A stretch of 64,000 nt of DNA. Origin: Prochlorococcus marinus (GTDB taxonomy: Bacteria > Cyanobacteriota > Cyanobacteriia > PCC-6307 > Cyanobiaceae). The stretch is taken from contig NZ_CVSX01000023.1 of NCBI RefSeq assembly GCF_001180305.1, forward strand, positions 62,001-126,000, in the 5' to 3' direction. The notes under the pieces are model-generated. The model worked only from the letters and a program-made list of their open reading frames with translations, ran no database searches and was not told the DNA's origin. How positions within the stretch are numbered: the first letter of the stretch is position 1; every line of letters starts with the position of its first letter. This document shows, one piece after another, positions 12,947 to 22,094 of this stretch. A program made the translations under genes and the position numbers.

Positions 12947-13471
12947 TTACGTTTTTAATTTTTCCATTTGTAAAAGTCTGTGAAGGATATCTTCAATTGT
13001 TTTTGTATCAATTGGTTTACTATAAGAGGACAATAGTTGTCTTCCTAATACTTGACTTCCTAAGTGAACTAATTGAATGCGTAATGAGGTAAGTAACTCT
13101 AAACCTATTCCACCAGAGAATGTAGCAATTGCGATTGGTTGACCATTAAATAAATTCCTAAAATCATCTCCTGAAATAGATAACCAAGCTATGAAGTTTG
13201 AGAGAATAGGAGGTATAGATCCATTATATTCAGGAGCACAAATCACCCACTTTTCTATTGTGAAAAGCTTTTTTTTTAATTCTTCTATTACAACTGGGAT
13301 ATTATCTTTGCTATGAATTCTTGGATTAAATAAAGGAATATCAATGGTCGTAAGATCTAGTATCTCTGAACTTATTTTAAGTTCATTACTTTTTTCAAGG
13401 AATTTTTCTGAAAGTTCTAGATTTTTTCCACAACTAGCAGTAATGATTATAAGATCTTTTGATTCAGTCAT
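12947..13471 (-). CDS. NAD(P)H-dependent FMN reductase family protein
   Basis: This 174-aa flavodoxin-fold protein has the FMN_red signature CAPEYNGSIPPILSNFIAWL (about residues 78-97) and the phosphate-binding strand IIITASCGKNLELS near the N-terminus. These enzymes reduce FMN or bound flavin, or act as quinone or azo reductases. It starts 17 bp after flv1 on the same strand, so it is probably the third gene of a flv3-flv1-reductase unit. It may supply electrons or reduced flavin to the flavodiiron proteins, but that is inference from position. Confidence 0.8.
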   Translation of the reverse strand: MTESKDLIIITASCGKNLELSEKFLEKSNELKISSEILDLTTIDIPLFNPRIHSKDNIPVVIEELKKKLFTIEKWVICAPEYNGSIPPILSNFIAWLSISGDDFRNLFNGQPIAIATFSGGIGLELLTSLRIQLVHLGSQVLGRQLLSSYSKPIDTKTIEDILHRLLQMEKLKT

Positions 13472-13488
13472 AAATTAGATAAATAAAT

Positions 13489-15291
13489 TTAATAGTTAGC
13501 ACCTGTTTTACGGTGATGAACTGCGGTTAGACTATCGGATTTTAGTATATTGCCGTGTAGTACTTCAGCATATATTACCCAATGATCCCCACATTCCATT
13601 CTCTCTTTTACTGATGCGTCTAACCAGGCTAAAGATTCAGGAATGATTATTTGTTCATTGGGAGTTAACTCAATATCTAAACCTTCAAATCTATCTTCTC
13701 CTGGTGCAAAGGTTTTTGTGAATCTTTTCAAAGGTTCTTTAAAATCTTTTTCGCTAAGAATATTTAATGCGAATGAATCTCCTATTTGCAGAAGAGACTC
13801 TACCGACCTATCTTTTGCAACTGCAATACTTAATCCCGGAGGAGAAAAACTTGCTTGACTAACCCAAGATGCAAGCATAGCCCCTTTGATATTATTCTTA
13901 TCTTTGCCTTTAGAGGCAGTTAGAACGCAGAGTGACCCAATTACTCTCCCAAGAGCTTGTAGCTTTGGATCCGTTTTGCTTGTAATCATTCCAGTATCTG
14001 ACGTTCTGGGTTTTTTCTTTGCTTTTTTTATAATTTTTCTTCCAAAGTGAGTTCCTATTTCTTCTAGCTCTTTAATCTTTGGTTTATTTGGACTGAATTT
14101 AATCCTTATGGGTTCAAAACTAAACTTAAAACCACCGTCTTTTAATTTTGTTTCAAGTAAATCTATAGCTTCGCCGCTCCAGCCAAAACTACCAAAAATT
14201 CCTACTGGTTTATCTCTATTACCCTCTGATAATAATGTTCCTAGTGCACTTACTATTGGAGTTGGGGCGTGACCACCTAGTGTTGGTGATCCTATTAAAT
14301 ATCCATCAGCGTTTTGGATAGATTTTATAAGTACATCATTTGGTGTAAATTCACAATTTATACTTTCAACTTCGACAGAAGTTCTATTTATCCCTTTAGC
14401 CAATGCATCACCAATTGAGGCTGTATTTCCATATGCACTTGCATATATCAGAGCGATCTTAGGATTATTTTTTGAGATATTTTCACCCCATCTAATGTAG
14501 TCATTTAAGAAGCTTTTTAAACTATATTCGATAGCCGGACCATGTAATGGTGCAATAGTTTTAATGTCGTAATCTGCAATTTTTTCAGTTATTGATACTA
14601 CTTGATTAGACATTGGTGCCATTAAGCAATCATAAAAATGTTTCCTATCAATTTCTGTACTAACTCGATTGATTTCAGACCAATCTGCAGAAGCAATGTG
14701 AGCAGAGAAAATTTTTTCACTTAGAAGAATTTCTTGATTACGTTCATAAATTATCAGCCCTCCAGGCCAACGTGCTGTTGGAATAGGAATTAACTCTAGT
14801 GAAATGTTATCAAATTCTAAATTTAGTTCCTTTTTGACTATGTTTATATTGGGTAATTGAATTTCAACGAAGTCTTTTAAATTAGGATTTCTTTGATTCC
14901 AAAGTTCATTAATAAGTTTAAAGCCAGGATTTGAGCAAGTTATGGTTAAGTCCTGAAATTGCTTACTTACGGTTTTTATGGTTTCTATGATTTGAGGATT
15001 GATATGTCCAGAAATGACGTTTATTTTTTTTAATTTGTATTGATTAAAAAAATTAGATATTATCTCGTTAAATAAATTTAAATATTGTTTCTCAGGTGGA
15101 TGAATAATAAAAAGTTCCTCATTACTTCTAATGAAAAAAGTATTAAAAGAGGTTCCTTTTTCAAGGTTAAATTCAAGTTCAAATCTTTCTTTATTTTGGT
15201 CTAGGAATCTTACACAAGAAAAATTTTCAGTAATTTTAAATTCTGATAAATTTTGATTTTCTGCAAGTAAGCCTATATTAATATCTGACAT
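13489..15291 (-). CDS. flv1: Flavodiiron protein Flv1
   Basis: This 600-aa class C flavodiiron protein has a metallo-beta-lactamase-like domain (about 30-265), a flavodoxin domain (about 280-425; IALIYASAYGNTASIG) and a C-terminal flavin reductase-like domain (about 445-600). The canonical HxExDH iron-ligand motif is replaced: the equivalent stretch reads ISGHINPQIIETI. Loss of the ligands is typical of cyanobacterial Flv1, which acts as a heterodimer with Flv3. The complex reduces oxygen to water with NADPH or ferredoxin electrons on the acceptor side of photosystem I. It shares clear similarity with flv3 at 17539-19314 and is followed by an FMN reductase gene. Confidence 0.9.
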   Translation of the reverse strand: MSDINIGLLAENQNLSEFKITENFSCVRFLDQNKERFELEFNLEKGTSFNTFFIRSNEELFIIHPPEKQYLNLFNEIISNFFNQYKLKKINVISGHINPQIIETIKTVSKQFQDLTITCSNPGFKLINELWNQRNPNLKDFVEIQLPNINIVKKELNLEFDNISLELIPIPTARWPGGLIIYERNQEILLSEKIFSAHIASADWSEINRVSTEIDRKHFYDCLMAPMSNQVVSITEKIADYDIKTIAPLHGPAIEYSLKSFLNDYIRWGENISKNNPKIALIYASAYGNTASIGDALAKGINRTSVEVESINCEFTPNDVLIKSIQNADGYLIGSPTLGGHAPTPIVSALGTLLSEGNRDKPVGIFGSFGWSGEAIDLLETKLKDGGFKFSFEPIRIKFSPNKPKIKELEEIGTHFGRKIIKKAKKKPRTSDTGMITSKTDPKLQALGRVIGSLCVLTASKGKDKNNIKGAMLASWVSQASFSPPGLSIAVAKDRSVESLLQIGDSFALNILSEKDFKEPLKRFTKTFAPGEDRFEGLDIELTPNEQIIIPESLAWLDASVKERMECGDHWVIYAEVLHGNILKSDSLTAVHHRKTGANY

Positions 15292-15305
15292 TTCAAAGAC
15301 TTTTT

Positions 15306-15329
15306 TCTAATAGTGGTTAGTGACTTTCT
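15306..15329 (-). pseudogene. Relic of the flv3 3' end
   Basis: On the minus strand these 24 bases read like the last codons of flv3, ending KVTNHY-stop against KVANHY-stop in the intact gene (17538-17562). The two segments differ by three substitutions and one missing A. The relic's stop lies 15 bp before the flv1 start, the spacing expected of an operon. Homology stops upstream of it. I read it as the original flv3 terminus left behind when DNA inserted there. Confidence 0.6.
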
Positions 15330-15354
15330 AGCGATACCAAGGGGTGATATGCAC

Positions 15355-15429
15355 TTTCAACGGATTTTCAACTATCGACCAGAACATTTAATTCTTGGAA
15401 AACCGTTATGTATCAGTCGATTATACCTA
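15355..15429 (+). repeat. 75-bp direct repeat, copy A
   Basis: It begins TTTCAACGGATTTTCAAC and ends CGATTATACCTA. It matches copy B (16500-16574) over 75 bp with three substitutions and no gaps. Copy A lies 25 bp inside the flv3-end relic, at the left edge of the accessory DNA. An internal imperfect inverted repeat can fold into a stem. The family is unknown. Confidence 0.9.
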
Positions 15430-15496
15430 TAACAGCACCATTAATGAGTTATTAAATGTAGGGTTTCCAACTGGAACGCGATTTCTTGTTGATTAT

Positions 15497-15643
15497 CTAA
15501 GCAAATTGATGATTTTTATAAATTTTTCTGTAATCATCATGCAATCTTTCTGTTGCTAATCTTCTATTCTTCATTGCGTCTCTAATCAAATCCATTTCAT
15601 GGAAGTTTTGATTGAGAATAGTGAAAGGAGTAATGAGTTTCAT
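15497..15643 (-). CDS. 48-aa protein, unknown
   Basis: This minus-strand frame starts MKLITPFTILNQNFHEMD and encodes a hydrophilic, basic, helical product of 48 aa (RDAMKNRRLATERLHDDYRK). The start is preceded by AGGAGG four bases upstream, an almost perfect Shine-Dalgarno that is rare in this genome, which strongly supports translation. It lies between repeat copies A and B. It has no membrane segment, signal peptide or recognised family. A small regulatory or nucleic-acid-binding role is possible, given charge and size, but nothing proves it. Confidence 0.65.
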   Translation of the reverse strand: MKLITPFTILNQNFHEMDLIRDAMKNRRLATERLHDDYRKIYKNHQFA

Positions 15644-15647
15644 AAGA

Positions 15648-15653
15648 CCTCCT
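15648..15653 (-). promoter_or_regulatory. Strong Shine-Dalgarno for the 48-aa ORF
   Basis: AGGAGG on the minus strand lies four bases before the ATG at 15643. It decides the start of the 48-aa ORF and is a stronger match to the anti-SD than the other starts I inspected in this window. Confidence 0.7.
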
Positions 15654-15689
15654 ATATCTACACTTATATTGTCCTCCTTTTTACTTGAA

Positions 15690-15859
15690 ATTCATAGGGT
15701 ATTTCTACCCGAGTATTAGTGCTTTGTGGTTGTCACGACTATCATTTTCCATTCAGTAGGAGTAGAAATAATTCAGGAGTCAAAAGCACTTCATCGACTT
15801 TGTGGACAGCGAGGTGCATACGACTCGAAGAGGGCGAATAAATGCCCTCTTATTTTTTT
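15690..15859 (+). ncRNA. Candidate small RNA ending in an intrinsic terminator
   Basis: The segment contains a 5-bp hairpin (GGGTA-TTTC-TACCC near 15697-15710), about 110 bases of mixed sequence with higher GC than the surroundings, and a strong plus-strand terminator (15828-15859). No plus-strand gene precedes it, so the terminator implies a short untranslated transcript starting somewhere near 15680-15730. The 77-codon frame from 15726 runs through the terminator and is unlikely to be translated. The RNA start and function are unknown. Confidence 0.4.
15828..15859 (+). terminator. Rho-independent terminator
   Basis: An 8-bp perfect stem, AAGAGGGC (15828-15835) with GCCCTCTT (15844-15851), has an 8-base loop and is followed by A then seven Ts. 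This is the clearest intrinsic terminator seen in the window, and it faces the plus strand. Confidence 0.8.
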
Positions 15860-15912
15860 CTTTGATCTACTTTATAGATCTACAGTGTGGAAAGGGAGAG
15901 AGGGATGTTGCT

Positions 15913-15934
15913 CAACTGTCACATGTGACAGTTG
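15913..15934. promoter_or_regulatory. Perfect 22-bp palindrome, possible operator
   Basis: The half-site CAACTGTCACA is followed directly by its reverse complement, giving a perfect 22-bp dyad with no spacer. It lies 91 bp upstream of the 147-aa secreted-protein gene. The inner GTCACATGTGAC resembles dimeric repressor or activator operators, but its half-sites are inverted relative to the CRP consensus. It could equally be an RNA hairpin. Confidence 0.5.
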
Positions 15935-16025
15935 CCAAAGAATAATATTTCAACTTTAAATTTTCAACAAATAATTTATTGTTTAAATGTGTGAGTGAGT
16001 TGTTGAAAATATCTTAATTTTTAAA

Positions 16026-16469
16026 ATGAAAATTCTTATCGCATCTCTTATATTGGGTGCTTCTTTTCCAGTTAATGCTCATGAGAGCATTGGTGATCAT
16101 ATCCATCGAGAAGCATATGAGTCACAAAAAGGATATGCATATGAGAACAAGTGCTTCCGCTATGAATACAGGGAAAAATATATTCCAGGCACTTCAATTT
16201 CCCCGGGTTATGTCAAATCTTATAGTGAAAAGGTTTCTATCCCATGCAATACTCATCGAAAAGTATTTAACCATTATCATCATAAGACTGAACCACAAAC
16301 TTCGTATGTGAAATATAAACCTGCTCCAAAATGTACTGGAAGTACAACTTTAGGTGGATTAATAGGTGGTGGAATTGCAGCATCTTTATCAAAAAGTGAT
16401 GCATATGGTTGGAGTATTCCTTTAGGTGCAGTTTTAGGTGCAGGAATTGGAAATGCCGAATGTAAATAA
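16026..16469 (+). CDS. Secreted glycine-zipper protein, unknown
   Basis: This 147-aa protein has a clean signal peptide (basic K, hydrophobic core to residue 15, cleavage after VNA at 18). The mature N-terminal half is rich in His and Tyr (HESIGDHIHREAYE). A C-terminal glycine-zipper stretch (about 108-145) contains GGLIGGGIAA and GAVLGAGIG, which could span a membrane as two short helices, as in outer-membrane glycine-zipper proteins. Four cysteines in the mature part may form two disulfides. It lies between repeat copies A and B, downstream of the palindrome. No specific function is known. Confidence 0.65.
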   Translation: MKILIASLILGASFPVNAHESIGDHIHREAYESQKGYAYENKCFRYEYREKYIPGTSISPGYVKSYSEKVSIPCNTHRKVFNHYHHKTEPQTSYVKYKPAPKCTGSTTLGGLIGGGIAASLSKSDAYGWSIPLGAVLGAGIGNAECK

Positions 16470-16494
16470 TTATGGTTTTTATCTATATTGAGGA

Positions 16495-16574
16495 TCAATT
16501 TTCAACGGATTTTCAACTATCGACCAGAAAATTTAATTCTTGGAAAATCGTTATGTATCAATCGATTATACCTA
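16495..16574 (+). repeat. 75-bp direct repeat, copy B
   Basis: The core, 16500-16574, is 72/75 identical to copy A. Five further bases at the left end (TCAAT, 16495-16499) are shared only with copy C. Arms AACGGATTTTCAA (16504-16516) and TTGGAAAATCGTT (16540-16552) can pair as 12 base pairs with two single-base bulges. It lies 25 bp after the glycine-zipper gene and separates the two cargo genes. Confidence 0.9.
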
Positions 16575-16699
16575 GAAATTAAGGATTAGGGATTTTTCAA
16601 GTTAATTAGAAAACTATAAAAATAGATCTAGTAATTTATGTTGAATTAAACTCAAATTAGACTTTTTGTAGTAGGTTATAAAGTTATTAAAATAAATAA

Positions 16700-17086
16700 A
16701 TGAAAAAAAACAAAGTTCTCATGTCTTTCCAAAAATCAATTATATTTTTTATCCCCCTTTTAGTAACTAGTTGCGTAGGTGGGGCAACTACAATAAATTC
16801 TACAGATGGTTCAAAAATAAGATTTAAGAGTGAGAATGTTACTTGTAAAAATAGCGTAGAATATCCAGACTATTTTGGTATTGGATTTAGTGGTAAAAGA
16901 AGAAATGTTGAATGCACTGCAAATGGTGTTCGCACTTTTTTAACTGGAGATAGAACAAATTTTTCTGAAAAGAAAATTTGTAAAGTTATTGATGAAAGAG
17001 GAGTGGAACAAGATGCTGTAATCTCAAGAAATAATAAAAATTCATTTGCATGTCTAGCGGCAACAAAATTTAGAAAACTTAAATAA
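16700..17086 (+). CDS. Cysteine-rich putative lipoprotein, unknown
   Basis: This 128-aa protein has a lipoprotein signal: a basic start, hydrophobic IIFFIPLL, and lipobox VTSC with the lipidated cysteine at 25. The mature protein has four more cysteines, spaced for two disulfides, and a beta-rich pattern (GSKIRFKSENVTCKN; GVRTFLTGDRTNF). A start at M8 would also give a valid signal. It lies alone between repeat copies B and C. It is probably anchored facing the periplasm. No family was recognised. Confidence 0.6.
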   Translation: MKKNKVLMSFQKSIIFFIPLLVTSCVGGATTINSTDGSKIRFKSENVTCKNSVEYPDYFGIGFSGKRRNVECTANGVRTFLTGDRTNFSEKKICKVIDERGVEQDAVISRNNKNSFACLAATKFRKLK

Positions 17087-17538
17087 TTTAATTCAATTAT
17101 TTTCTAAAGTTTTTATATTTATTTTGTCGCTATTCATTTAAAAAATATTCACATTTTTTAGTAATAATCAGTCAAAAATAATTTCTTTTTTGCAAAATTA
17201 AAATTAATTGCTTTTTTGTTTTGAAAAGAATCAGATTTCTAATATTTTATTTTTATATTTTTGGAATATAGAAATAGTCTTTTTTCAATCGCAGATAGTC
17301 CTCAAAATAAAAAATTTAAACAATTAATGCCTTCATGTATGCAAATCTTTTAAAAAAAATAAGTGAATTTTGCTTAGTTTGGGGGGGGTCAATTTTCAAC
17401 GGATTTTCAACTATAAATCAAAAAAAACCTAGTTATAACTTGAATCTATATTTTTTTCAACTGAATTTAAAAGTATAATTTTTTTATTTGCACTTAGTGA
17501 TACCAATGGGTTTCAAGTCTTTAGATGCTAAATCAAGT
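17087..17538. other. Gene-free interval with repeat copy C and a G8 tract
   Basis: This 452-bp interval is very AT-rich. It holds eight Gs in a row (17381-17388), truncated repeat copy C (17389-17414), and a segment TAGTGATACCAATGGGT at 17491-17507 that resembles TAGCGATACCAAGGGGT beside the flv3-end relic (15329-15345). A start-less frame ending near 17357 could be a decayed gene but cannot be supported. Confidence 0.5.
17389..17414 (+). repeat. Truncated direct repeat, copy C
   Basis: 26 bp identical to the left end of copy B (16495-16520). The remaining repeat is absent apart from a possible CCTAG remnant about 15 bp further on. It lies 124 bp from the flv3 stop, at the right edge of the accessory DNA and in the same orientation as copies A and B. 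Confidence 0.8.
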
Positions 17539-19314
17539 CTAATAGTGATTAGCAACTTTTCTGTGATGCACTGCTGTCTTACATGATAAGTCAGAAACAT
17601 TGCCATTTTCAACAATTCCGTAAATTATCCAATGGTCTGGAGTCTCCAGTCTTGAACTGACTTTACAATCTAAAAAGGCGAGTGAATCTGAGAGAACTGG
17701 TCCACCTTCAGCGATGTTGCTAATTACATCTACATCCGCAAATCTATCGGCTCCAGGGGCAAATCTTTTTAAAAAATGTCTGAACATTTTTTGATAATTA
17801 TCTTCTCTCAAGATATTCACAACAAAACCTTTCCCAACTTGCATATAAGATTCAATAGCTCTATCTTTTGCTACGGCAACTGTAATACCTGGTGGAGAAA
17901 AGCTTGCTTGACTAACCCAACTTGCGACCATTGCACTTTGTCTAAATGTCGAACCTTCTCCTTGGCTCGCTGTTACTACATATAATCCACCACTTAATCT
18001 CCCTAGCGCTTTATCTAAATTTGAATCAAGGCTCTTCATAGAGGCAATATTCTTCTTTTTGTTGATCAATTGACCCAAGTCAGTTCCAGCTTCTTCGAAT
18101 TGTTGATAAACAATGGGATCTGGAATATTTTTAACTCTTAACGGAGAGAAAGCTTCTTTTTGACCAAGTTCTCTTAATTTATTTGCTAAGGAATCTATAG
18201 GTTCATCATTTCCACCAAATGAATCATAAACTGCAGTAAATTGCTTTGGTTTTAGTGCTGCAAATAAAGTACCGAGAGATTCTTTTAATTCATTATCTGA
18301 GTCTACTGGCCATGTGGGAATGACTACTGCTTTCGATTCGGAAATTAAACTTGTTAATTCTTGCGGATCAGAAGATCTTAAATCAATTAACTGAACCTGA
18401 GCATCTGCTTTGCTTATTCCATGAGATATCGCTTGACTTAGTCGATCACAATAACCATAGTCGCTTATGTAGCAGACTGACACAAAATCATTGCCTTTGC
18501 TTTTGTTACTACTCCATTCAAGATATTTTCCTTTCCAAAAATTGACCTGATTATGGAGCAGAGGCCCATGACCAACAGCTATTGTTTTCAATTCAGGTAG
18601 CTTATCTATTCTTTTAATTGCCTGCATAACGCTTCTAGCGTTTGGACCCATAAGGCAATCGTAATAAAAACGGAAATCATCGTATATTTCTTTTTGATCA
18701 GTGTCAAAAAATTCGTCAGAACAATAATGGAGTCCAAATGCATCGCATGTATAGAGAACATTTGTGCTGTGATCATATGAAAATATGGTATCTGGCCAAT
18801 GTAAATTTGGTGCACTTATAAATTCAATATTATGTTCTAAACCACTATTAGGATTAGTTCCGAGGTTTAAAAAATCTCCACTCTTAACCTCTAGACGTTT
18901 AAAGGGAATATGTATTTGGTCTTCAATAAATTTAAGTGCTAATTTTGATCCAACTACTGTGATATTTTGGTTTAACTCTAAAAGATTACCTATTAAACCA
19001 GAATGATCAGGTTCTGTATGGCTAGTAATTAGATAATCAACTTCTTGCGGATTTACCTTTGTCAGTAATTCTTCAAACCATAATTCTTCGAACTTTGCGT
19101 GACTAGTATCAATAATTGCTAGTTTCTCGCCTTTAATAATAAAACTATTGTAAGTAGTTCCATTTCTTAAACCAAATTCAATATCAAATCTACTGCGATC
19201 CCAATCCAAAGATCTTATGGCACAAGAATCATCAGCAAAGTTTTGAGATTGAACCGTCAACTTGTTATTAGTTTGTGCCAATTTAAAATTACTTGTCTGG
19301 GCAGAGGCTATCAT
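17539..19314 (-). CDS. flv3: Flavodiiron protein Flv3
   Basis: Class C flavodiiron protein of 591 aa: a metallo-beta-lactamase-like diiron domain with intact ligand motif SHTEPDH (H99, E101, D103, H104), a flavodoxin domain from about 280 (VSVCYISDYGYCD), and a flavin reductase-like domain from about 435. Intact ligands distinguish Flv3 from its partner Flv1. Together they photoreduce oxygen to water without releasing superoxide, protecting photosystem I under fluctuating light. It was probably once directly upstream of flv1; about 2.2 kb of accessory DNA now separates them. Whether flv1 is still cotranscribed is open. Confidence 0.92.
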   Translation of the reverse strand: MIASAQTSNFKLAQTNNKLTVQSQNFADDSCAIRSLDWDRSRFDIEFGLRNGTTYNSFIIKGEKLAIIDTSHAKFEELWFEELLTKVNPQEVDYLITSHTEPDHSGLIGNLLELNQNITVVGSKLALKFIEDQIHIPFKRLEVKSGDFLNLGTNPNSGLEHNIEFISAPNLHWPDTIFSYDHSTNVLYTCDAFGLHYCSDEFFDTDQKEIYDDFRFYYDCLMGPNARSVMQAIKRIDKLPELKTIAVGHGPLLHNQVNFWKGKYLEWSSNKSKGNDFVSVCYISDYGYCDRLSQAISHGISKADAQVQLIDLRSSDPQELTSLISESKAVVIPTWPVDSDNELKESLGTLFAALKPKQFTAVYDSFGGNDEPIDSLANKLRELGQKEAFSPLRVKNIPDPIVYQQFEEAGTDLGQLINKKKNIASMKSLDSNLDKALGRLSGGLYVVTASQGEGSTFRQSAMVASWVSQASFSPPGITVAVAKDRAIESYMQVGKGFVVNILREDNYQKMFRHFLKRFAPGADRFADVDVISNIAEGGPVLSDSLAFLDCKVSSRLETPDHWIIYGIVENGNVSDLSCKTAVHHRKVANHY

Positions 19315-19433
19315 AGGATAATTAGCTTTATAATTTAACTTTAGTTATATAGAATATAAATTCGCGTGATTATCTTTGCGAAATAACCGAAATTACGCTT
19401 TTCTTTAATTTTTAATCTTCTTATTCTGGATAA

Positions 19434-22094
19434 ATGACATCTCAATTAATTAAAAAAATAGTTACTGGAGATGAGATAAGAAATGCTTTTTTAAAATTTT
19501 ACAGTGAAAAATTACATAAAATCATTCCAAGTGCATCTTTGATTCCAGATGACCCTACTGTTATGCTCACAATTGCTGGAATGCTACCTTTTAAACCAGT
19601 TTTTTTAGGTTTAAAAGAAAGACCATCAAAAAGGGCTACATCTAGCCAAAAGTGCATCAGAACAAACGATATAGAAAACGTTGGAGTTACAGCCAGACAC
19701 CACACTTTTTTTGAAATGCTTGGTAATTTCTCTTTTGGAGATTATTTTAAACAAGAAGCTATTCAATGGGCTTGGGAATTAGTTACTAATATTTATCAAC
19801 TTTCTGTTGAAAATATAATTGTGAGTGTTTTTCACGAAGACGAAGAGTCTGCAAAAATTTGGAGAGATGAAATTGGTATTCATCCAGATAGGATAGTCAA
19901 ACTAGGCGAGGAAGATAATTTTTGGTCATCTGGCAAAACAGGTCCATGTGGACCTTGTTCAGAACTTTATTATGATTTTCATCCTGAAAAGGGTCTGAAG
20001 AATATTGATTTAGAAGATGGAGAGCGTTTTATTGAATTTTATAATCTTGTTTTTATGCAATATAATCGTGATCCTAATGGAAAATTGACAGATTTAAAAT
20101 TTAAAAATATTGATACAGGAATGGGTCTTGAAAGGATGGCTCAAATACTCCAAAAAAAGCAAAATAATTATGAGACAGATTTAATTTTTCCTATTATTCA
20201 AAAAATTTGTGAGATTGCAAATATTGATTATTTTTCTTCAGATTATAAAAACAAAATTTCTTTAAAAATCATTGGTGATCATACAAGAGCTGTTATTCAT
20301 TTAATTTCTGATGGAGTATCAGCAAGTAATCTCGGTAGGGGATATATATTAAGAAGGCTTATTAGAAGAATGGTCAGACATGGCAGATTATTAGGTATAA
20401 CTGATGAATTTTTACCTCATATTGCTACTGTCGGAATTAACTTAATGCAAAATAATTATCCTGATTTAAAAAATAATAATGATTTAATTTTGAATGAGAT
20501 AAAAATTGAAGAAATAAGATTTAGGGAAACTCTTGAAAGAGGAGAGAAATTGCTAGATGAGTTAATTTCTTCAGGGCAGAAATTAATTTCTGGTTTTAAA
20601 GCTTTTGAACTTTATGATACTTATGGATTTCCTCTAGAACTTACTGTAGAAATTGCTGAAGAACATTGTATCAGTGTAGATGTAAAGGGTTTTGAAGAAG
20701 AAATGAATAAACAAAAAGAGAGAGCTAAAGCGGCTTCAAGTAATATTGATTTGACATTAGAGGGATCATTAGAGCGAGAAATAGATCTTTTTAACAAAAC
20801 TGTTTTTAATGGTTATGAGTCACTCCTTTCGGAAGCTGAAATAAAGGGTATATTCTTGGATTCAACATTAGTTAAGGAAGCAAGTGAAGGTCAGAAAGTT
20901 TTAATTGTTCTTGATCAGACAACTTTTTATGGAGAATCTGGCGGGCAAGTTGGTGATATTGGAACGATATTTTCAAACGATGTTGAGGTCTTGGTTGATA
21001 ATGTCATGCGAAAGAAAAATGTTTTTTTACATTATGGAACGATCAAAAAAGGAAAATTAACTATTGGACAAAAAGTTAAGACTAATGTTAGCTCCTCTAG
21101 TAGAGCTAAGGCTGCTGCAAATCATACAGCTACTCATTTATTACAATCTGCACTTAAATCAGTTATTAATGAAAGTGTTGGACAAAAAGGTTCATTAGTA
21201 GCCTTTAATAAATTAAGATTTGACTTTAATTCCTCTAATCCTATTTCTAAAGATCAAATTTCTAAGATTGAGACTTTAGTTAACTCTTGGATTATGGAAA
21301 ATCATGCCCTAGAAATAAAAAATATGTCTAAGAGTGAGGCTCTTGAAAAGGGCGCAGTCGCCATGTTTGGAGAAAAATATGATGATGAAGTGCGCGTTGT
21401 TAATGTACCAGGAGTTTCAATGGAACTTTGCGGTGGCACACATGTTAAAACTACATCCGAATTAGGTTCTTTCAAAATAATTAGTGAGGAAGGAATCTCA
21501 GCTGGAGTCAGAAGAATCGAAGCATTATCAGGCCAATCAGCATTAGACTATTTCAGTGATAGAAATGCATTAGTAAACCAACTAAGTGATTTGTTAAAAG
21601 CAAATCCTAATCAACTTTTTGAAAGGGTTAATAATTTGCAAGCAGAGCTTATTAATAAGAATAAAGAGATACAAAAAATGAAAGATGAAATTGCATATTT
21701 TAAATACTCTTCTATAAAATCATCCGCAGAAATAGTAAATTCTTATTCAATTTTAGTAAATCAGATTGATGGCTTAGATGGGAATTCTTTGCAATCTGCA
21801 GCACTTAATTTAACTTCTCATTTGGGAAATAAAGCAATAGTGATTCTTGGGGGAATACCAAATCCAGAAAATAGAAAGTTGTTATTTGTAGTTTCTTTAG
21901 GTGATGATGCAGTAAAAATAGGATTGCATGCAGGTAAGTTAATTAATGAGATTGCAAGAATTTGTTCGGGAGGTGGAGGAGGAAAGCCTAACTTTGCTCA
22001 AGCAGGTGCTAAAGATATTGATAAGTTAAGTGATGCTTTAGATTATGCTAAAAATTATTTGCAAAAAACATTGGTTAGTCATTCTGATAAATAA
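19434..22094 (+). CDS. alaS: Alanyl-tRNA synthetase
   Basis: This 886-aa enzyme has the full AlaRS layout. The class II catalytic domain comes first ([16 protein letters not shown] and [18 protein letters not shown] near 70-105). The editing domain has the zinc-binding HTATHLLQ motif and the second CGGTHV motif. The C-Ala domain ends [16 protein letters not shown]. It charges tRNA-Ala and edits mischarged Ser and Gly. It is divergent from flv3 across a 119-bp spacer, and its 3' end overlaps the convergent speA by 16 bp. Confidence 0.97.

Follow-up and report, generated by a model that had tools for sequence, protein, structure and literature searches.

The 22-bp palindrome at positions 15913–15934 of the 64,000-nt Prochlorococcus marinus stretch analysed here (the window) raises the question of whether it is an operator and, if so, for which regulator and which gene. 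A sequence-only reading had described it as a perfect dyad, rare by chance, placed ahead of a gene for a secreted glycine-zipper protein as an operator would be. The sequence (CAACTGTCACATGTGACAGTTG) and coordinates proved exact, and a scan of all centres showed that nowhere else in the window does a perfect palindrome reach 18 bp. Its rarity is borne out by 60 dinucleotide-preserving shuffles, which yielded 5 perfect palindromes of at least 22 bp in total (∼0.08 per window), and no second copy was found at up to 3 mismatches in the window or in its own genome (1.46 Mb, 91% complete). The dyad ends 91 nt before the ATG at 16026 of the 147-aa gene (16026–16469, plus strand), exactly as had been claimed, while its distance from the T run of the preceding terminator was measured as 53 nt. 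The latter, an intrinsic-terminator-like stem-loop on the plus strand (15828–15851, with the T run to 15859), is context and lies outside the operator. Both flanking genes are on the minus strand (13489–15291 and 17539–19314; 600 and 591 aa) and, judged from reading their sequences, presumably encode flavodiiron-type proteins. The conserved unit within the dyad, not assigned to a strand, is the 20-bp core at 15914–15933 (AACTGTCACATGTGACAGTT), since the outermost C/G pair is variable in orthologs; its consensus is AACTG[T/G]CACATGTG[A/C]CAGTT, giving two half-sites AACTGKCAC.

The 147-aa protein, which resembles PF05433 at E 0.014 (below the family cut-off) and for which NCBIfam yielded no hit at E up to 0.01, is matched in 211 of the 266 genomes of the genus. 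Full-length orthologs (62–100% identity, 28 distinct proteins) are found in 29 of these, a partial match with no start found (L091) having been excluded; the remaining matches are weaker and mostly represent a distant paralog, and no such site was found at the paralog in the window's own genome. Far from being absent or freely substituted at orthologous loci, the site ends 90–93 nt before the ATG in all 29 orthologs, which are close relatives of one genus and hence non-independent cases, with a core that is perfect in 24, carries one mismatch in four and two in one. With gaps penalized, mean column identity reaches 0.99 in the core compared with 0.54 in the 48 columns to its left and 0.86 between core and gene, so it is the core that has been held rather than its neighbourhood. 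A divergent Yfr2 gene lies on the other side of the site in seven of the ortholog loci (once weakly) and is not seen at the other 22; Yfr2 alone therefore does not explain why the site is retained. The placement of an operator before the glycine-zipper gene, as first proposed, thus finds strong support in its retention at 29/29 orthologs. In genome G018 (L007/L085), the glycine-zipper gene faces, across the site, a divergent 261-aa gene with its start ∼57 nt from the site.

Other features are found in the same part of the window. Positions 15720–15859 (plus strand) form a candidate sRNA with a fold z-score of −2.29 (4 of 200 shuffles as good) and no Rfam family at E up to 5; the stretch 15700–15855 is matched at 75–100% identity, in some cases partially, in 48 of 109 loci, at both glycine-zipper and Yfr2 loci. 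The glycine-zipper gene is flanked by a direct repeat (15355–15455 and 16500–16600; 101 nt, 85%) with a 40-nt partial third copy at 17386–17425, and the repeat core TTTTCAACGGATTTTCAACTAT occurs three times at up to 3 mismatches (chance 0.01); similar stretches are present in many orthologous loci. Downstream, 16700–17086 (plus strand) encodes a putative secreted protein or lipoprotein of 128 aa, for which no Pfam match was found at E up to 0.1.

When AACTGKCACATGTGMCAGTT was scanned across the GTDB collection of 84,980 species genomes, 79 stretches matched exactly, of which 75 are from Prochlorococcus, one from Cyanobium and three from other bacteria; the genomes concerned overlap with the 29 ortholog genomes. 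The site stands with Yfr10 and Yfr2 at 39 stretches, with Yfr2 without Yfr10 at 13, with the glycine-zipper gene at 16 and between that gene and Yfr2 at four, so that Yfr2 is found at 56 stretches and the glycine-zipper gene at 20 (90–94 nt away), four of which have both. The seven matches with neither are those in the three other bacteria, two at stretch ends (L117 and L127), the Cyanobium locus L160, and L172, where the syntenic glycine-zipper gene has been lost. The Yfr2 start lies 51–68 nt from the core, mostly 55–58 nt. A DNA search of relatives led to other palindrome loci (Cyano-1, i.e. Yfr2, in 12 of 14 scanned, and Yfr10 in 9 of these 12), and in two other genera, with one locus taken per genome, Yfr2 was present at 19 of 20 loci, the last ending at a contig end. 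The palindrome, sought in related genomes as the sequence-only reading had advised, thus recurs at both glycine-zipper and Yfr2 loci: the element is not confined to the glycine-zipper gene and stands at Yfr2 promoters as well. With AACTGNCACATGTGNCAGTT at up to 2 mismatches it is found in 137 of the 266 genus genomes, the reversed-pattern control giving none among the matches listed, and the K/M form at up to 1 mismatch is present in 97 of 392 family genomes of completeness at least 80. These belong to 4 of 40 genera, the other 36 having no 20-bp form at this threshold.

An element of this kind is CGRE1, reportedly defined by Lambrecht 2018 (DNA Research). As described in PMC6778093, CGRE1 lies upstream of yfr2 in marine picocyanobacteria, is bound by the GntR-family regulator PMM1637, and in MED4 is confined to yfr2 homologs. 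The present motif is found in the promoters of yfr2 homologs, the window copy itself being without Yfr2. A genome of 1,657,990 bp (G015), which by its length we take to be MED4, has two copies of the site when up to 2 mismatches are allowed, and each of them lies upstream of Yfr2; with this identification the MED4 sites are indeed confined to yfr2 homologs. A regulator is encoded in the same genome as the window copy, at the level of the GntR family: the single match is a 328-aa protein with PF00392 (G000:C55; L061:487-1473), and homologs were found in all 30 chosen family genomes. Across the 31 genomes the whole protein is 67–91% identical to that of the window's own genome and its DNA-binding domain is nearly invariant; being alike throughout, the domain does not tell genera that have the exact 20-bp site from those that lack it. 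Likeness to CGRE1 extends to the position class upstream of Yfr2, the two sites in the presumed MED4 and the conserved regulator gene. The difference is that the window copy precedes a protein gene and not an sRNA, whereas CGRE1 in MED4 is described nowhere but at yfr2 (PMC6778093, in part). Because the distribution of the site fits the published account, we propose that the palindrome is a CGRE1-type operator through which a conserved GntR-family regulator of the PMM1637 type would control the glycine-zipper gene, with a probability of roughly 0.8; the class assignment is drawn from the position and distribution of the site as set against the description of CGRE1 in PMC6778093. The glycine-zipper gene would be, as judged from its upstream sequence, a new target for a known kind of element.

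Any dimeric protein would suit a perfect dyad, and since GntR binding is a prediction and CGRE1 was matched by description, a different dimeric regulator (TetR, MarR, CRP-like or other) could instead govern a regulon of Yfr2, the glycine-zipper gene and the phage gene discussed below. The two sites in the presumed MED4, both at Yfr2, fit the GntR account. CRP/FNR sites have the order TGTGA-N6-TCACA and NtcA sites read GTA-N8-TAC. The dyad reads TCACA and then TGTGA without a spacer and holds no GTA-N8-TAC, and both types of site were rejected. The suggestion of a CRP/FNR-type regulator in the sequence-only reading accordingly fell, its half-site order being the reverse of the CRP consensus, a mismatch which that reading had itself correctly remarked upon; TetR found no support. 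The published regulator of Yfr2 promoters is of the GntR type, CGRE1-bearing yfr2 promoters being reportedly bound by PMM1637 (PMC6778093, in part), and a different dimeric regulator is rather unlikely.

The left flank of the palindrome bears on the history of the promoter. Positions 15887–15934, palindrome included, align at 79–85% identity to Yfr2-holding loci, while beside the window site no match to Yfr2 (Rfam Cyano-1) was obtained in 13000–19500 at E up to 5, the single weak Rfam match in this interval being Spy392987 (E 2.5, under the cut-off). Since the flank at 15887–15912 (minus strand) resembles a Yfr2 promoter read leftwards while Yfr2 is absent from the window, it is probably the relic of a divergent Yfr2 promoter. 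The promoter unit would then be a Yfr2 unit turned towards the protein gene, as suggested by locus L006, where Yfr2 and the glycine-zipper gene stand on either side of one site, and by the many ortholog loci without Yfr2. It might be argued from the same flank, from the divergent Yfr2 still present at seven of the 29 loci, L006 included, and from L172, which keeps the site without the gene, that the palindrome itself is a mere relic with no role for the glycine-zipper gene. This is improbable, as the distance between site and gene has stayed constant in the 22 loci without Yfr2 despite the drift of the left flank, and two Cyanobium-type genomes (L160/L268, by length the same contig, and L269) likewise pair it with a glycine-zipper gene. 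In these, 72–73 nt separate the site from the ATG of a gene for another secreted protein of the glycine-zipper kind (PF05433, E 1.4e-4, below the family cut-off). Locus L269 (genome G321) has two site copies 668 bp apart, both followed after 73 nt by a glycine-zipper-type start; the frame opened by the second start is short, suggestive of a truncated duplicate.

The window's own genome has Yfr2 and Yfr1 genes, and its two Yfr2 genes carry degraded sites with 12 and 14 of the 18 half-site letters. Because these sites are poor, the protein gene, not Yfr2, may be the main target of the element in this genome. In 13 genomes of 11 genera the 20-bp form is seemingly absent upstream of Yfr2 outside one locus. 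When the spacing was freed, 14 of 30 Yfr2 loci in these genomes reached 17–18 of the 18 half-site letters (counts that stand without a shuffle control); in 13 of the 14 the spacer is 1 bp long and not 2 bp, and the distance to the RNA is ∼50 or 14 nt. The other 16 loci have no recognisable site in either spacing.

The resemblance to Yfr2 continues downstream of the operator. The leader contains a 5′UTR motif, GTGTGAGTGAGTTG (15989–16002, plus strand), around which 16 columns have a mean identity of 0.94 in the orthologs, and transcription probably starts near this position. Yfr2 begins with a similar motif, which is nearly complementary to that of Yfr1 (PMC6778093, in part). Predicted pairing with the Yfr1/Yfr10 motif ranges from −11.7 to −16.7 kcal/mol for the 29 ortholog leaders, the window leader reaching −16.7, compared with a best value of −11.6 and a median of −3.3 kcal/mol for 40 control stretches upstream of long window ORFs with mechanically assigned starts. 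Among four Yfr2 5′ ends, three give −16.4 to −17.3 kcal/mol and one, from the window's own genome, −9.6. No such motif is visible in the Cyanobium leader. The glycine-zipper transcript resembles the Yfr2 (Rfam Cyano-1, RF01701) and Yfr1/Yfr10 network in its spacing from the site and in a 5′ RNA motif predicted to pair, and differs from Yfr2 in being an mRNA without a Cyano-1 match.

It is likely that, in the assembled promoter, a GntR dimer would bind the two half-sites ∼55 nt upstream of the 5′UTR motif and switch the glycine-zipper gene, and in numerous strains Yfr2 as well. Since it would be placed as at Yfr2, the regulator would most likely act as an activator, and the conditions reported for Yfr2 suggest activity in high light and late nitrogen starvation. 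The resulting mRNA would start with a Yfr2-like motif able to pair with Yfr1/Yfr10, which may add a layer of sRNA control.

The exact site is also found in 91 viral contigs, which include close relatives and are non-independent, compared with 0 and 0 for two scrambled palindromes. In 86 of the 91, a homolog of the gene for a cyanophage outer-membrane protein (T4-like, T4-GC 241) starts 32–148 nt downstream; its product, an outer-membrane-like barrel, matches PF24653 (cyanophage outer membrane protein). The five loci without the gene are L230, L258, L235, L237 and L259, and in the last three one side covers merely 88, 198 and 37 nt, respectively. In 59 of the 86, the 60 nt preceding the site contain a sigma-70-like pair, compared with 249 of 4300 shuffled stretches. 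This would often place the phage site just after the transcription start, and a protein bound at such a position would be expected to repress, in contrast to the host arrangement. S-CAM9 carries the site and S-PRM1 is a putative carrier. The 20-bp form is missing from P-SSM3, P-SSM2, P-HM1, P-RSM4 and P-SSM7, all of which possess the outer-membrane gene (P-SSM2 twice); the best approximation in P-SSM3 has 5 mismatches. Forms with 1-bp and 3-bp spacers (L363–L406) were observed in 35 and 9 viral stretches and are followed by the phage gene in 29 and 7 of them, respectively. A GntR gene was found in none of 8 viral records, some of which are possibly fragments.

A perfect dyad also folds as RNA, and phage copies, which often lie just downstream of a promoter-like pair, would be transcribed, so that the palindrome could act as a hairpin, whether terminator, stability element or protein target. 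We consider this very improbable: in the host the Yfr2 RNA, as modelled, starts downstream of the palindrome, and asymmetric G/T variants that break one pair are common, at 32 of the 79 genome and 37 of the 91 viral matches. No Rfam family was matched at the leader with the palindrome in any of 14 phage loci searched.

The CGRE1-type operator reading, extended to phages, has a precedent in host PhoB, which controls cyanophage genes via Pho boxes, with binding observed by EMSA (PMC10976474, in part). The two cases are alike in having a host regulator's site before phage genes. They differ in regulator family and signal, in the evidence, which is binding by EMSA there (PMC10976474) and sequence association here, and in the phage gene, which in the present case encodes an outer-membrane-like barrel. 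The parts consulted of PMC6778093, PMC7368042, PMC9692554, PMC9241938, PMC2662882 and PMC10976474, among the literature searched, hold no report of the site in cyanophages, although Lambrecht 2018 could contain one. It is about evenly balanced whether T4-like cyanophages have put the host GntR site immediately behind the promoter that drives their outer-membrane-protein gene, in which case the light and nitrogen state of the host, sensed through GntR, would gate a phage envelope protein. On this reading the site would serve the host for both Yfr2 and the gene of the secreted glycine-zipper protein, and the mRNA of the latter would imitate the Yfr2 5′ end and might be a target of Yfr1/Yfr10 or titrate them. 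This extension to phages, a sequence association, is the more surprising part of the finding.

Prochlorococcus has few regulators. A site at a protein gene would widen the CGRE1 regulon in other strains beyond Yfr2. It would also link the regulon to the cell envelope, the place where two porins are reported targets of Yfr1 (PMC6778093, in part). The 20-bp site before the cyanophage outer-membrane gene supplies an exact DNA fragment for testing binding and suggests that phages may heed this host regulator, much as they respond to PhoB (PMC10976474, in part).
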